From the NCBI GenBank assembly GCA_019187485.1, contig JABAQR010000014.1, positions 1-64,000 on the forward strand: 64,000 nucleotides of DNA, read 5' to 3'. Of the stretch, positions 38,287 through 57,817 are shown in pieces (position 1 is the first letter of the stretch; each line of letters starts with the position of its first letter). The stretch comes from Lysobacterales bacterium (GTDB lineage: Bacteria; Pseudomonadota; Gammaproteobacteria; Xanthomonadales; SZUA-5). The translations under genes were made by a program, and so were the position numbers. The notes beneath the pieces are model-generated. The model saw only the letters and a program-made list of their open reading frames with translations, was not told where the DNA came from and did no database searches.

Positions 38287-38290
38287 GGAA

Positions 38291-38525
38291 AAGGCGGTGA
38301 AACGTGAGAATCGAAAAGTGAAAGGAAGAACCCGATCCTGGATAAGCTTGGACGCCGACGATTCCAGCGCTCCTCACTGTGGAAGGTCTGAACAAGTCCG
38401 TCCTGGACTTCTTCAGACGCACCATCCGTGGCGCGCGGAACCTCTGAGTTGTTCAGAGGTTCCCTATCACCGTTCACGCTCGCCTTCGCCTTCACGGTTC
38501 ACTATTCGCCATTCACGACTCCTCC
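38291..38525. repeat. Heptad-arm palindrome (recR-HIT gap) enclosing two smaller hairpins
   Basis: The left arm (38291-38330) is made of words such as GTGAAAC, GTGAGAA and GTGAAAG. The right arm (about 38469-38525) carries the complementary GTTCACT, ATTCGCC and ATTCACG in a 7-bp step. Between them are a near-perfect 14-bp hairpin (38386-38399 with 38405-38418, one mismatch) and one copy of the 45-bp dispersed repeat. Confidence 0.7.
38422..38466. repeat. 45-bp dispersed repeat, copy 1
   Basis: A 45-bp sequence identical to 52515-52559. It contains the perfect 11-bp hairpin GGAACCTCTGA/TCAGAGGTTCC (38437-38447 with 38453-38463, loop GTTGT). It is inserted inside the larger heptad-arm palindrome. 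Confidence 0.9.
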
Positions 38526-38526
38526 C

Positions 38527-41079: not shown

Positions 41080-41085
41080 CAAGAG

Positions 41086-41261
41086 CTGGGGCACGCGAAA
41101 CGGGGCACGGGGCACGGGAAAGGCCGGTTCCCCATGTCGCCGTGGGCTGCAGATGAAGTGCGCAGGCGGTCGCTTGTGCGAAACGCGCGTCGTGCGAGCT
41201 TTCCCGTGCCCCGTGCCCCGTGCCCCGCAACTTCCAACCCTGACCCCTGACCCCTGACCCC
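41086..41261. repeat. Heptad-arm palindrome between adaptor and first RND gene
   Basis: The left arm (41086-41122) contains tandem GGGGCAC words and ends GGGCACGGGAAAG. The right arm (41199-41229) is CTTTCCCGTGCCCCGTGCCC and on, in a 7-bp step. After it comes TGACCCC repeated three times at 41241-41261, directly before the start codon of the next gene. Confidence 0.85.
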
Positions 41262-41265
41262 ACGC

Positions 41266-53792: not shown

Positions 53793-54542
53793 TCACCGGG
53801 CGACACGACGTCCGGAATCTCGCTCGCCCGGAGCGTGACCTTCCGGCTGCACGGCAGGCGCGCCTGCCAGCCAGGCGTTGATCTGCGCGCTGTCCTGCGC
53901 GTCCGTCGGTTCGAGCCGCATCCACGGGGCATCCAGCAGATCGTGTGCTTCGAGCAGCGTGCGCACCTCCGCGGCGCTGCCGAACACGAACGCCCAGTGC
54001 GTGGACACGTAACCGTCGCGGCTGCCGTCTGCGCGACGGTCGCGTTTCTCGACCCAGCCCGGCACCTTGCCGTCGATGATCAGGTGCGAGGTCTTGCGCA
54101 GATCGACCAGTCGCAGCGTGATCGAGGCATCTTCGTGGCGGTCCCATGCGACCAGCGTGTAGCCATCCGGCTTGTCCTGCGAGGGCGAATTTGCATCGCC
54201 GTCCTTCGGGCGGTCGCGTGCGGCGATGAAGGCCTGCGTGGAGGTGCGCGCGAAGCCGAGTACGAGGTCCTCCTCGAGGTCATCGACCTCGATCTCCTCG
54301 GACCCGTCCGCCTTGCGCTCGACCGCGACCGTGAACCAGCGTTCGCAGCCGCTGTCCACCCGCAGGTACTGACGGCCATCGGTTCGTGGTCCCTCGCGCA
54401 GGTCGGTGATGAGCCAGTCGCCCACGAGCGCCGCATCGCAGTCGGCGAGCGGCTCGTCGGGTGCGGACTGGAACTCGACGGTATCGCATGCGGTGGTCGC
54501 GAAGACGGCGATCACGATCGGCAGCAGTCTTGATGCGGTCAC
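53793..54542 (-). CDS. Putative lipoprotein of unknown function
   Basis: 249 residues from a GTG start. An N-terminal signal with lipobox (FATTAC, Cys about residue 19) predicts lipidation and export. The mature part is acidic and has no recognised domain; a segment CERWFTVAVERKADGSEE and a Lys/Arg-rich C-terminus are visible. The start overlaps the stop of liuD (GTGA), so it is cotranscribed with leucine catabolism genes, but no functional link is known. Confidence 0.75.
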   Translation of the reverse strand: MTASRLLPIVIAVFATTACDTVEFQSAPDEPLADCDAALVGDWLITDLREGPRTDGRQYLRVDSGCERWFTVAVERKADGSEEIEVDDLEEDLVLGFARTSTQAFIAARDRPKDGDANSPSQDKPDGYTLVAWDRHEDASITLRLVDLRKTSHLIIDGKVPGWVEKRDRRADGSRDGYVSTHWAFVFGSAAEVRTLLEAHDLLDAPWMRLEPTDAQDSAQINAWLAGAPAVQPEGHAPGERDSGRRVAR

Positions 54543-56551
54543 GTTCCGCTCTCCGCTGCCAGACGCACCAGCACGCTGTCGGCTTCGACGAATTCACCGA
54601 CGCTGGCGCGGATCTCGGCGACCTTGCCGGCGCGCGGTGCGCGCAGCGTGAGTTCCATTTTCATCGCCTCCATGACCACGACTTCCTGGCCCTCGGCGAC
54701 CTCCGCATCGGCGTCGACGCGCAGCGCGACGATGCGCCCCGGCATCGGCGCGCGCACCGCATCGCCGCCGCTCTTGCGACGGGCCTCGAAGGCGAAGGGG
54801 TGGCGCTGTCCGAGCACGAAGCGTTGCTCGCCATCGTGCGCGAGGTAGCCCTGCGGCAGCGCGCGCACGGTCATCCGCAGTGCGCGTTCGCCGAGCAGGC
54901 AATCGACCGTATCGGCGCTGGCAAAGGCACCACGCACCTGCAGGTGGTCGGCGCCGATGTCGAGCGTGTAATCGCCGGCGTGGCCATGCGCCGACACCTC
55001 GACCAGCGCCTCGCCATGCAGGAAGTGCTTGAGGCGCTTGCCCGGATGGCCGTGGCGCCAGCCGTCGGCGGCGGCCCACGGCGAATGCGGATCGCTGCCG
55101 GTGCGCGCGGCCGCCCGGGTGGCCGCTTCCTCGTCGAGCAGCGCGCGCACGGTCACCGCCACCAGCACCTCGCGCGGCAGCGCCGGCGCGCTCGGCAGCA
55201 CCTCGTCGAGGTGCTGGTCGAGGTAGCCGGTGTCGATCGTCGCCTCGACCACCGCCGGGTGCCGCACCAGCCTTTCGAGGAATTCGACATTGCTCTTCGG
55301 GCCGACCACGACGGTCTGCGCGAGCGCGCGCCGCAACAGCGCCAGCGCCTCGCCGCGATCGGCCTCGTGCACGATCAGCTTGGCGATCATCGGGTCGTAG
55401 TGCACGGTCACGAGGTCGCCTTCGACCGCGCCGGAATCGATGCGCACGCGCTCACTGGTGTCGGGCAGCCGCAGCATCTCCAGCCGGCCGCTGCCCGGCA
55501 GGAAGTTCCGCGCCGGGTCCTCGGCGTACAGGCGCACTTCGATCGCGTGCCCGCGGGTCGGCACCGGCCGCTGCGGCACGAGGTCGGCGAGGCGGCCGCC
55601 GGCGGCGATCGCCAGTTGCAGCTCGACCAGATCCATGCCGGTGACCATCTCGGTGACCGGGTGTTCGACCTGCAGCCGCGTGTTGATCTCCATGAAGTAG
55701 AAATCGCCGGCCGGGCCAACGATGAACTCGACGGTGCCGGCATTCGCGTAGTCGATCGCGCGCCCGGCCTGGACCGCGGCGGTACCCATTGCCGTGCGCA
55801 GTTCCGGTGTCAGGAAGGGCGAGGGCGATTCCTCGATGACCTTCTGGTAGCGCCGCTGCGCCGAGCACTCGCGCTCGTTGAGGTGGATCACCTCGCCGTG
55901 GTGGTCGCCGAAGATCTGGATCTCGATGTGGCGCGGGCGCTCGACATAGCGCTCCAGCAGCACGCGGTCGCGGCCGAAGGCGCCACGCGCCTCGCGCTGG
56001 CAGGACTCCAGCGCCGCCGCGAACTCGTCCAGCGCGCGCACCACGCGCATGCCCTTGCCGCCGCCGCCGTGCGCGGCCTTGATCATCAGCGGGCAACCGA
56101 TGCGTTCGGCCTCGCGCGCCAGCAGCGCCGGATCCTGGTCCTCGCCGGTGTAGCCCGGTACCACCGGCACGCCGGCGGTTTGCATCAGCACCTTGGCGCC
56201 GGCCTTGGAACCCATCCTGCGCATCGAGGCGGCACTCGGTCCGATGAAGACCAGGCCTGCCTGCGCGACCGCTTCGGCGAAATCGGCGTTCTCGGACAGG
56301 AAACCGAAGCCCGGATGCACTGCCTGTGCGCCGCTCGCGAGCGCCGCCTCGATGATGCGTTCGCCGCGCAGATAGGAGTCCGCCGGCCGCGCCCCACCGA
56401 TCCAGCGGCCCTCGTCGGCCACCCGCACATGCTGCGCGCGCGCGTCGGCGTCCGAGTACACCGCGACCGTGCCGATGCCGAGCCGCCGGCAAGTGCGCGC
56501 GATGCGGCAGGCGATTTCGCCGCGATTGGCGATCAGGATCTTCGAGAACAT
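54539..56551 (-). CDS. liuD: Biotin-dependent acyl-CoA carboxylase alpha subunit (likely 3-methylcrotonyl-CoA)
   Basis: Biotin carboxylase plus biotin carrier in one chain. 670 residues with the ATG at 56551 (MFSKILIANRGEIACRI). ATP-grasp motifs HGGGGKGMRVV, FMEINTRLQVEHPVTE and RLYAEDP are present; the biotinylation site is EAMKMELTL near the C-terminus. The size and neighbouring enoyl-CoA hydratase (57739) fit 3-methylcrotonyl-CoA carboxylase of leucine degradation rather than acetyl-CoA carboxylase. The beta subunit (liuB) and isovaleryl-CoA dehydrogenase are not in the window. The 402-bp gap before the hydratase holds nested palindromes. Confidence 0.93.
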   Translation of the reverse strand: MFSKILIANRGEIACRIARTCRRLGIGTVAVYSDADARAQHVRVADEGRWIGGARPADSYLRGERIIEAALASGAQAVHPGFGFLSENADFAEAVAQAGLVFIGPSAASMRRMGSKAGAKVLMQTAGVPVVPGYTGEDQDPALLAREAERIGCPLMIKAAHGGGGKGMRVVRALDEFAAALESCQREARGAFGRDRVLLERYVERPRHIEIQIFGDHHGEVIHLNERECSAQRRYQKVIEESPSPFLTPELRTAMGTAAVQAGRAIDYANAGTVEFIVGPAGDFYFMEINTRLQVEHPVTEMVTGMDLVELQLAIAAGGRLADLVPQRPVPTRGHAIEVRLYAEDPARNFLPGSGRLEMLRLPDTSERVRIDSGAVEGDLVTVHYDPMIAKLIVHEADRGEALALLRRALAQTVVVGPKSNVEFLERLVRHPAVVEATIDTGYLDQHLDEVLPSAPALPREVLVAVTVRALLDEEAATRAAARTGSDPHSPWAAADGWRHGHPGKRLKHFLHGEALVEVSAHGHAGDYTLDIGADHLQVRGAFASADTVDCLLGERALRMTVRALPQGYLAHDGEQRFVLGQRHPFAFEARRKSGGDAVRAPMPGRIVALRVDADAEVAEGQEVVVMEAMKMELTLRAPRAGKVAEIRASVGEFVEADSVLVRLAAESGT

Positions 56552-56652
56552 GCGAGGGGCCGGAAAAAGGGATAGGGAAAATGCAAAAAGGGTGGGGCCG
56601 GGAAGTGGTTGTGTTTTCGGAGCGTTCGTCCCCCAGCGCATCTCGAAGGACC

Positions 56653-56676
56653 TGTGGGAGCGGGTTCATCCCGCGA
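56653..56676. repeat. REP-like hairpin
   Basis: TGTGGGAGCGGGTTCATCC starts a 24-bp element whose GCGGG (56660-56664) pairs with CCCGC (56670-56674). The wording resembles REP sequences widespread in Pseudomonas and Xanthomonadales genomes. Confidence 0.7.
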
Positions 56677-56752
56677 CCGGGGTGCCTCGCGGTCGCGGAC
56701 ACCCGCCCTCTACAGACACCTGATGGCTCGCCGATCCTTGGACCGCAGATGG

Positions 56753-56819
56753 GTCCGCAAAGGACGCAAAGGACGCAAAGGAATCAAGTGCTTCTGCCTT
56801 CTTTGCGTCCTTTGCGGAC
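56753..56819. repeat. CAAAGGACG palindrome (inner)
   Basis: GTCCGCAAAGGACGCAAAGG (from 56753), followed by a third tandem copy, pairs with TTTGCGTCCTTTGCGGAC (56802-56819). The word period is 9 bp. Only one mismatch occurs over the terminal 21 bp. Confidence 0.85.
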
Positions 56820-56953
56820 AAAAAGACTCCCGTCGGTAGGTTCCTTCGAGCAGCACCTTGCCAGGAACGTTCCGAAAACCCAGTCACCTCCCGGTCCCGC
56901 GCTCTTCCCTCTTTCCTCTCCCTTTTCCATTTTCCTTTTTCCTCTTCCCGGCT

Positions 56954-57739
56954 TCACAGCCAATTGGGCGTCCGCTTCTCGAGGAAGGCCGCCAGCCCCT
57001 CCTGACCCTCCATCGATACACGCAAGCGGGCGATCAGGGCGGCCGTCTGTTCGTCGAGTTTCTTCTGCGCCGGCTCGTCGCGGCCGAAGATGCCTTCGAC
57101 CAGGCGTTTGGCGACCAGCATTGCGGTCGGTCCGGCCTTCAGCAGCGCATCGAGTTCCTTTTCGATCAGCGCGTCCAGTTCCGCGGCTGGCACCACCTCG
57201 TGCACGAGGCCGATCTGCTGCGCCCGCGCGGCGTCGAACAGCGCACCCGACTGGAACCAGCGGCGCGCGTGGCGCACACCGATCGCGGCGACCACATAGG
57301 GCGAAATCACCGCTGGCACCAGGCCGAGCTTGCTCTCGGTGAGGCCGAAACGGGCCTCGGAAGCCGCGAAAGCGATGTCGCAGCAGGCGATCAGGCCGAC
57401 ACCGCCGCCGAAGGCCGAGCCCTGCACGCGCGCAACCGTCGGTTTCGGCAGGTAGGCGAGCGTGCGCATCAGCTCGGCCAGCCTGAGCGCATCGGCGAGG
57501 TTCTCGGCCTCGCCGAAGGCGGCCATCGCGCGCATCCAGTTGAGGTCCGCGCCCGCCGAAAAGGAAGCACCTTCGGCCGCCAGCACCACCGCGCGCACCT
57601 CGGGATCGGCGCCGGCGCGCTGGAGCGCCGCTGTCAGTTCGGCGATCAACTCCGCGTTGAAGGCATTGTGGACCGCCGGGCGGTCCATCGTCAGCGTCGC
57701 CACCCGGCCCGAGAGCCCGACCCGAACCATCCCCGCCAT
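56954..57739 (-). CDS. liuC: Enoyl-CoA hydratase, likely methylglutaconyl-CoA hydratase
   Basis: Crotonase-fold enzyme, 261 residues. The oxyanion motif SFSAGADLNWM and GSAFGGGVGLIACCDIAFA, then the catalytic region FGLTESKLGLVPAVISPYV, match the methylglutaconyl-CoA hydratase branch. The ATG at 57739 has GAGGG six bases upstream, better than the ATG at 57745. The next gene downstream is liuD, which supports a leucine-degradation role, although the intervening palindromes may weaken cotranscription. Confidence 0.9.
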   Translation of the reverse strand: MAGMVRVGLSGRVATLTMDRPAVHNAFNAELIAELTAALQRAGADPEVRAVVLAAEGASFSAGADLNWMRAMAAFGEAENLADALRLAELMRTLAYLPKPTVARVQGSAFGGGVGLIACCDIAFAASEARFGLTESKLGLVPAVISPYVVAAIGVRHARRWFQSGALFDAARAQQIGLVHEVVPAAELDALIEKELDALLKAGPTAMLVAKRLVEGIFGRDEPAQKKLDEQTAALIARLRVSMEGQEGLAAFLEKRTPNWL

Positions 57740-57817
57740 GCGCATCCCTCGAACTGCGGCGCGCTGAGTCTACACGCGCGGGGGCCGTTGCTTGTCGCTG
57801 CCAGGACGCGGATCCGT

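Follow-up and report, generated by a model that had tools for sequence, protein, structure and literature searches.

The interval between a liuC-like and a liuD-like gene in this Lysobacterales genome raises the question of how repeats of different classes come to lie one inside another within a single intergenic gap, and in which order they arrived. The gap lies in a window of 64,000 nucleotides (the whole stretch of DNA first annotated) and, at 56552-56953, is exactly the 402-bp stop-to-start interval claimed by the first-pass annotation. Both flanking genes are on the minus strand, with the stop of the liuC-like enoyl-CoA hydratase gene (56954-57745) at 56954 and the ATG of the liuD-like biotin-carboxylase gene (54539-56551) at 56551. 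Folding in silico, together with the gene limits, defines the whole gap as one long palindrome, which forms a single long stem on either strand at energies beyond chance, with -203.6 kcal/mol for the RNA (z -7.4; 0 of 100 shuffles as good) and -102.4 for the DNA (z -7.3; 0 of 100 shuffles equal). No promoter-like site was seen in 56300-57200 and no terminator-like site within the gap, and the matches to known RNA families were all sub-threshold and to eukaryotic families. The direct physical effect of the palindrome, if it has one, would be a very stable hairpin within the liuC-liuD transcript. The three repeat classes described earlier are all present and arranged as reported, with outer arms around a REP and a palindrome of 9-bp units.

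The outer arms had been described as heptad arms of about 70 bp. Their complementarity holds, at 71% over 75 nt between 56576-56650 and 56842-56916, but the heptads themselves are confined to approximately 56562-56608 and 56887-56949. The left arm (56562-56608, plus strand) is G/A-rich and built of degenerate GGAAAAA/GGGAAAA units, and the right arm (56887-56949, minus strand) is C/T-rich on the plus strand, with a lag-7 score of at least 12 and a lag-7 segment at 56902-56949. A further inverted pair joins 56562-56581 to 56923-56942, and the edge arms align with a score of 38, whereas shuffles never exceeded 14. Over its inner ~45 bp, each arm is non-heptad and follows TTTTCGG[AG]..CTCGAAGGA; the left continuation, TTTTCGGAGCGTTC..TCTCGAAGGACCT (56609-56653, plus strand), accompanies the REP, and the right continuation, TTCCTTCGAG..GAACGTTCCGAAAA (56841-56886, minus strand), is its inverted partner. 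The inner-arm sequence adjoining the REP recurs at C19:1152-1246 (84% over 96 bp), where the REP stands with TTTTCGGAGCGTTC..TCTCGAAGGA and without the 9-mer palindrome, and TCTCGAAGGA is found with a REP also on contig C51. We considered TTTTCGGAGCGTTC as a widespread terminal repeat and rejected it, as the genome holds three copies, two of them in the liuC-liuD gap.

Inside these arms, the REP-like hairpin of the first-pass annotation does contain a REP, but as a doublet rather than a single hairpin. A GTAG-type REP, GTGGGAGCGGGTTCATCCCGCGA, at 56654-56676 on the plus strand (its core pattern, with up to two mismatches allowed, matches 20 genome sites) is accompanied by a second in the opposite orientation at 56693-56715 on the minus strand, and two nearby inverted GTAG-type REPs are the arrangement of a REPIN (PMC3733652, PMC3116915). 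The palindrome with its GTAG-like tag, GTGGGAGCGGGTTCATCCCGC, thus has many intergenic copies: besides the 20 sites in the genome under study (G000), there are 25 and 63 sites within two mismatches in G001 and G002, respectively, which belong to the same genus. Matches to the RAYT family PF01797 number two in G001 (one with internal stops) and five in G002, and there is none in G000, a genome that is 99.5% complete. Because no RAYT was found in G000, we term the doublet REPIN-like, and it may be a relic. A 38-bp linker (56716-56753, plus strand) leads from the doublet to the 9-bp-unit palindrome at 56753-56819, in which (CGCAAAGGA)n faces its own reverse complement (arms 56753-56777 and 56795-56819, 92%). 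This palindrome belongs to a large family, with 203 pattern matches genome-wide within two mismatches. A 97% identical copy at C44:638-708 has no REP beside it; the surrounding match, C44:626-708 (L171), corresponds at 97% to 56746-56816 of the window in the opposite orientation and has 8-mer-like GCGGAG repeats around it.

Doublet, linker and palindrome occur together at C4:82940-83135 (78% over 204 bp), the one other place where the linker has both neighbours, and the homology to this copy ends in the window at GTCGGTAG (56832-56839, plus strand). Given the shared linker and the joint recurrence at C4, the REP doublet and the 9-mer palindrome are probably one composite, and we infer from two partial copies that the contents may have grown as such around the doublet. 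Three independent insertions were rejected as unproven, since the REP and the palindrome recur jointly.

The order of the layers can be approached by comparing relatives. GGAAAA-type arms stand at both edges of the liu gap in all three genomes examined from the genus, G000, G001 and G002, the left arm being of the same flavour at the same edge and the right arm conserved. In G002 the gap is 525 bp and has other palindromes inside both arms, and in G001 each arm is on a contig of its own, the middle being unassembled. The gap of G005, from the same family, is framed by a different heptad, GGGGCAR, and contains neither REP nor 9-mer repeats, and in G007 the gap is 35 bp. The readable parts of the G004 gap, upstream of liuD at L289, show neither heptad arms nor REP or 9-mer repeats; three hairpins of other kinds are present there. 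Because the arms persist across the genus while the contents differ where they are readable, these alignments support a heptad frame older than its contents. Consistently, inner repeats without the outer arms, which the first-pass annotation had named as evidence against its order, were present in the liu gap of no relative compared. Its proposal of sequential insertion survives as arms first and contents later, which fits the orthologous gaps, and loses three successive independent insertions, which are unsupported. No relative has the identical liu frame empty, the G001 middle being unassembled and G002 containing other repeats, and this counts against a composite that was inserted later. 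No target-site duplication was established. On balance, we consider it likely that the liu gap is a heptad-armed palindrome that arrived as a unit and later received a composite of REP doublet, linker and 9-mer palindrome.

Gaps elsewhere bear on the same order. We compared 104 orthologous gaps, with G000 a draft of 81 contigs and ortholog numbers small. At 41080-41265 (C2:41080) and at C4:6113, GGGGCAC arms are present in both G000 and G001, whereas the GTCCAGACTTGTCTGGAC palindrome, of the GTCCAGAC family, is present in G001 only; at the former, a GTCCAGAC palindrome fills the G001 ortholog. As the same arms are empty in one genome and filled in the other, both gaps argue for arms first. The GTCCAGACTTGTCTGGAC family occupies 16 of 278 gaps in G001 and none of 705 in G000; one such gap is G001_C9:34962-35198. 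The second nested case reported in the window, at 38291-38525, also proved real. There, heptad-like arms of the GTGAAAC/GTGAATA type (38287-38526) surround the hairpin 38437-38463. In the G001 ortholog a different interior is enclosed by GTGAAAC arms, so that the two genomes have the arm type in common and not the contents.

Nesting of this kind could also be coincidental, as heptads, REPs and 9-mers are all intergenic and heptads lie beside genes, which would imply neither an order nor a loop preference. The arms typically lie ~10 nt from genes (median edge distance), and co-occurrence in heptad gaps is near chance, with 9-mer palindromes in 3 gaps against 2.8 expected and REPs in 2 against 0.7, neither significant. 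Loop-targeted insertion of REPs or 9-mers was therefore dropped as a candidate. Loop-seeking is also not needed, since with arms this close to genes most later insertions land inside. Coincidence nevertheless leaves the class-matched arms described below unexplained, and it sits poorly with orthologs in which the same arms enclose an insert in one genome and none in the other, and with the excess of GTCCAGAC elements in heptad gaps of G001 (4 against 0.7 expected, p 0.004). We regard it as unlikely.

The outer arms are members of a class that extends across the genome. The sample comprised 1.46 Mb from G000 and 0.59 Mb from G001, with gene calls from a home-made hexamer model and lag-7 score thresholds of 10-14 chosen within the present analysis. 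In the gaps of the 1.46 Mb, lag-7 tandem segments were the commonest among the lags tested, numbering 74 against 0 in shuffles. Heptads were present in 59 of the 705 gaps sampled (60-900 bp); 60 were initially listed, one of which was a run of N. Their polarity is pronounced, as segments in the left half of a gap are G-rich by 37:1, those in the right half are C-rich by 36:5, and in all 21 pairs of adjacent segments the G-rich one precedes the C-rich one. Letters resembling AGCGG often bound the arms (33 arms, 4.1 expected). Six heptad classes (GGAAAAA, GGGGCAC, GGGGCA(A/G), GGGGGCT, GTGAGT(A/G) and GGTTGTC) cover every gap in which both arms are readable.

Paired heptads are known from Xanthomonas, where Rehm et al. 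2015 described GGGAATC heptads, of which each genome has 70-75 inverted pairs in convergent arrangement; those on the coding strand lie close to a stop and those on the non-coding strand close to a start (PMC4692102). The present arms share with these the G-rich tandem units of 7 bp, the intergenic position mostly between co-directional ORFs, this placement relative to stops and starts, and the inverted pairing with the G-rich arm first. None of the six classes in G000 has the GGGAATC or GGGANTN unit, and the outer arms are related in kind to the Xanthomonas heptads without being of the same family. In contrast to Xanthomonas, for which one heptad was studied (PMC4692102), G000 alone has at least six classes. 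Its arms are matched in class, its loops contain dispersed repeats of other kinds, and whole cassettes are absent from some orthologs. Heptads of other units (ACGGTTT, AGGTTTC, AGTTTAA) were seen as inverted pairs, again with the G-rich arm first, in a few loci from Wenzhouxiangella, Alcanivorax and other gammaproteobacteria, the distant pairs lying at L087 2685-2767, L096 129-220, L099 3908-3991, L109 3870-3954 and L116 4810-4970.

Flanking genes are co-directional at 53 of the 60 listed heptad gaps, compared with 415 of 705 overall (p 4e-7). Together with the strong RNA fold of the liu gap and the other hairpins in the G004 gap, this would suit a functional operon spacer, with hairpins under selection for their effect on expression or on mRNA stability between the two genes and with content turning over neutrally while the stem remains. 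The 35-bp gap of G007, which has no hairpins, and several overlapping orthologous pairs indicate that the stem is dispensable, and such a spacer role appears quite improbable as the explanation.

In each of the 28 gaps whose two arms could both be read, the arms agree in class, where 5.4 agreements were expected and 14 was the maximum in 20,000 shuffles. The main rival to arrival as a unit is local template switching, in which heptad slippage makes one arm and serves as template for the second at a quasipalindrome, so that the arms stay matched, and the inner repeats come and go independently. Inverted repeats are known to be both generated and made uniform by template switching (PMC8794818; PMC8604942), and the matched inverted arms with variable spacers resemble its quasipalindromic products (PMC8794818). 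In favour of this rival, the loops within one heptad class are unrelated, and both arms differ together between orthologs at C16:10373, at C2:67947 and in the liu gap of G005. However, within a class, the arms of a single gap show no greater similarity to each other than to those of other gaps (p 0.27), and local homogenisation was rejected for this lack of excess similarity. In addition, the six classes recur at many loci, making the matching a property of families rather than of local copying, in contrast to products private to one locus (PMC8794818), and whole cassettes occur where genes otherwise overlap. We accordingly assign template switching a low probability.

This last observation comes from three pairs of genes. 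In one genome the two genes share an ATGA overlap or are almost contiguous, and in the other a whole cassette separates them. At C5:31659 the genes are 3 nt apart, and overlap by ATGA in G007, against 188 bp in G001; at C6:78656 a gap of 151 bp faces an ATGA overlap in the ortholog; and at C16:5527 an ATGA overlap faces 166 bp. Because the first cassette is absent in two genomes, it was probably gained in G001. Arrival as a unit is suggested by whole cassettes being absent where the orthologous genes overlap, with both arms missing together. Like a REPIN, each palindrome would arise as a unit at the junction of two genes, would be tolerated because no gene is disrupted, and would then be a site where other palindromic repeats can land.

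With their conserved inverted ends and variable middles, the outer palindromes are similar to REPINs (PMC3733652, PMC3116915); they differ in having arms made of tandem repeats instead of REP hairpins, in a genome in which no RAYT was found. The unrelated loops within each class depart from the conserved interior between terminal inverted repeats that marks a MITE, and a conventional mobile element with a conserved middle was rejected for this reason. The same loops, so unlike those of ordinary mobile elements, weigh against the explanation preferred here, as does the failure to find a RAYT gene in G000; most cases of gain or loss come without an outgroup, and target-site duplication is unproven, as the ATGA or ATG found on both sides in two cases is needed anyway to keep both genes intact. 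Our tentative proposal, which we put forward as a possibility somewhat short of even, is that heptad-armed palindromes are REPIN-like moving DNA, placed by an enzyme between adjacent stop and start codons, with inverted tandem-heptad ends, but not the middle, being copied to new junctions between genes, and with at least six subfamilies in one genome.

Our search of the open-access literature found no report of class-matched arms, of cassette presence and absence, or of such nesting. Paired heptads in bacterial gaps had been described for one motif, with no origin given; class matching, cassette gain and loss, and nesting appear to be new. Importantly, class-matched arms, unrelated loops and missing cassettes make that origin testable, as joint arrival against local copying. 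The nested liu gap shows how an operon gap can grow by successive palindromes, whose layers can be ordered by comparing relatives.
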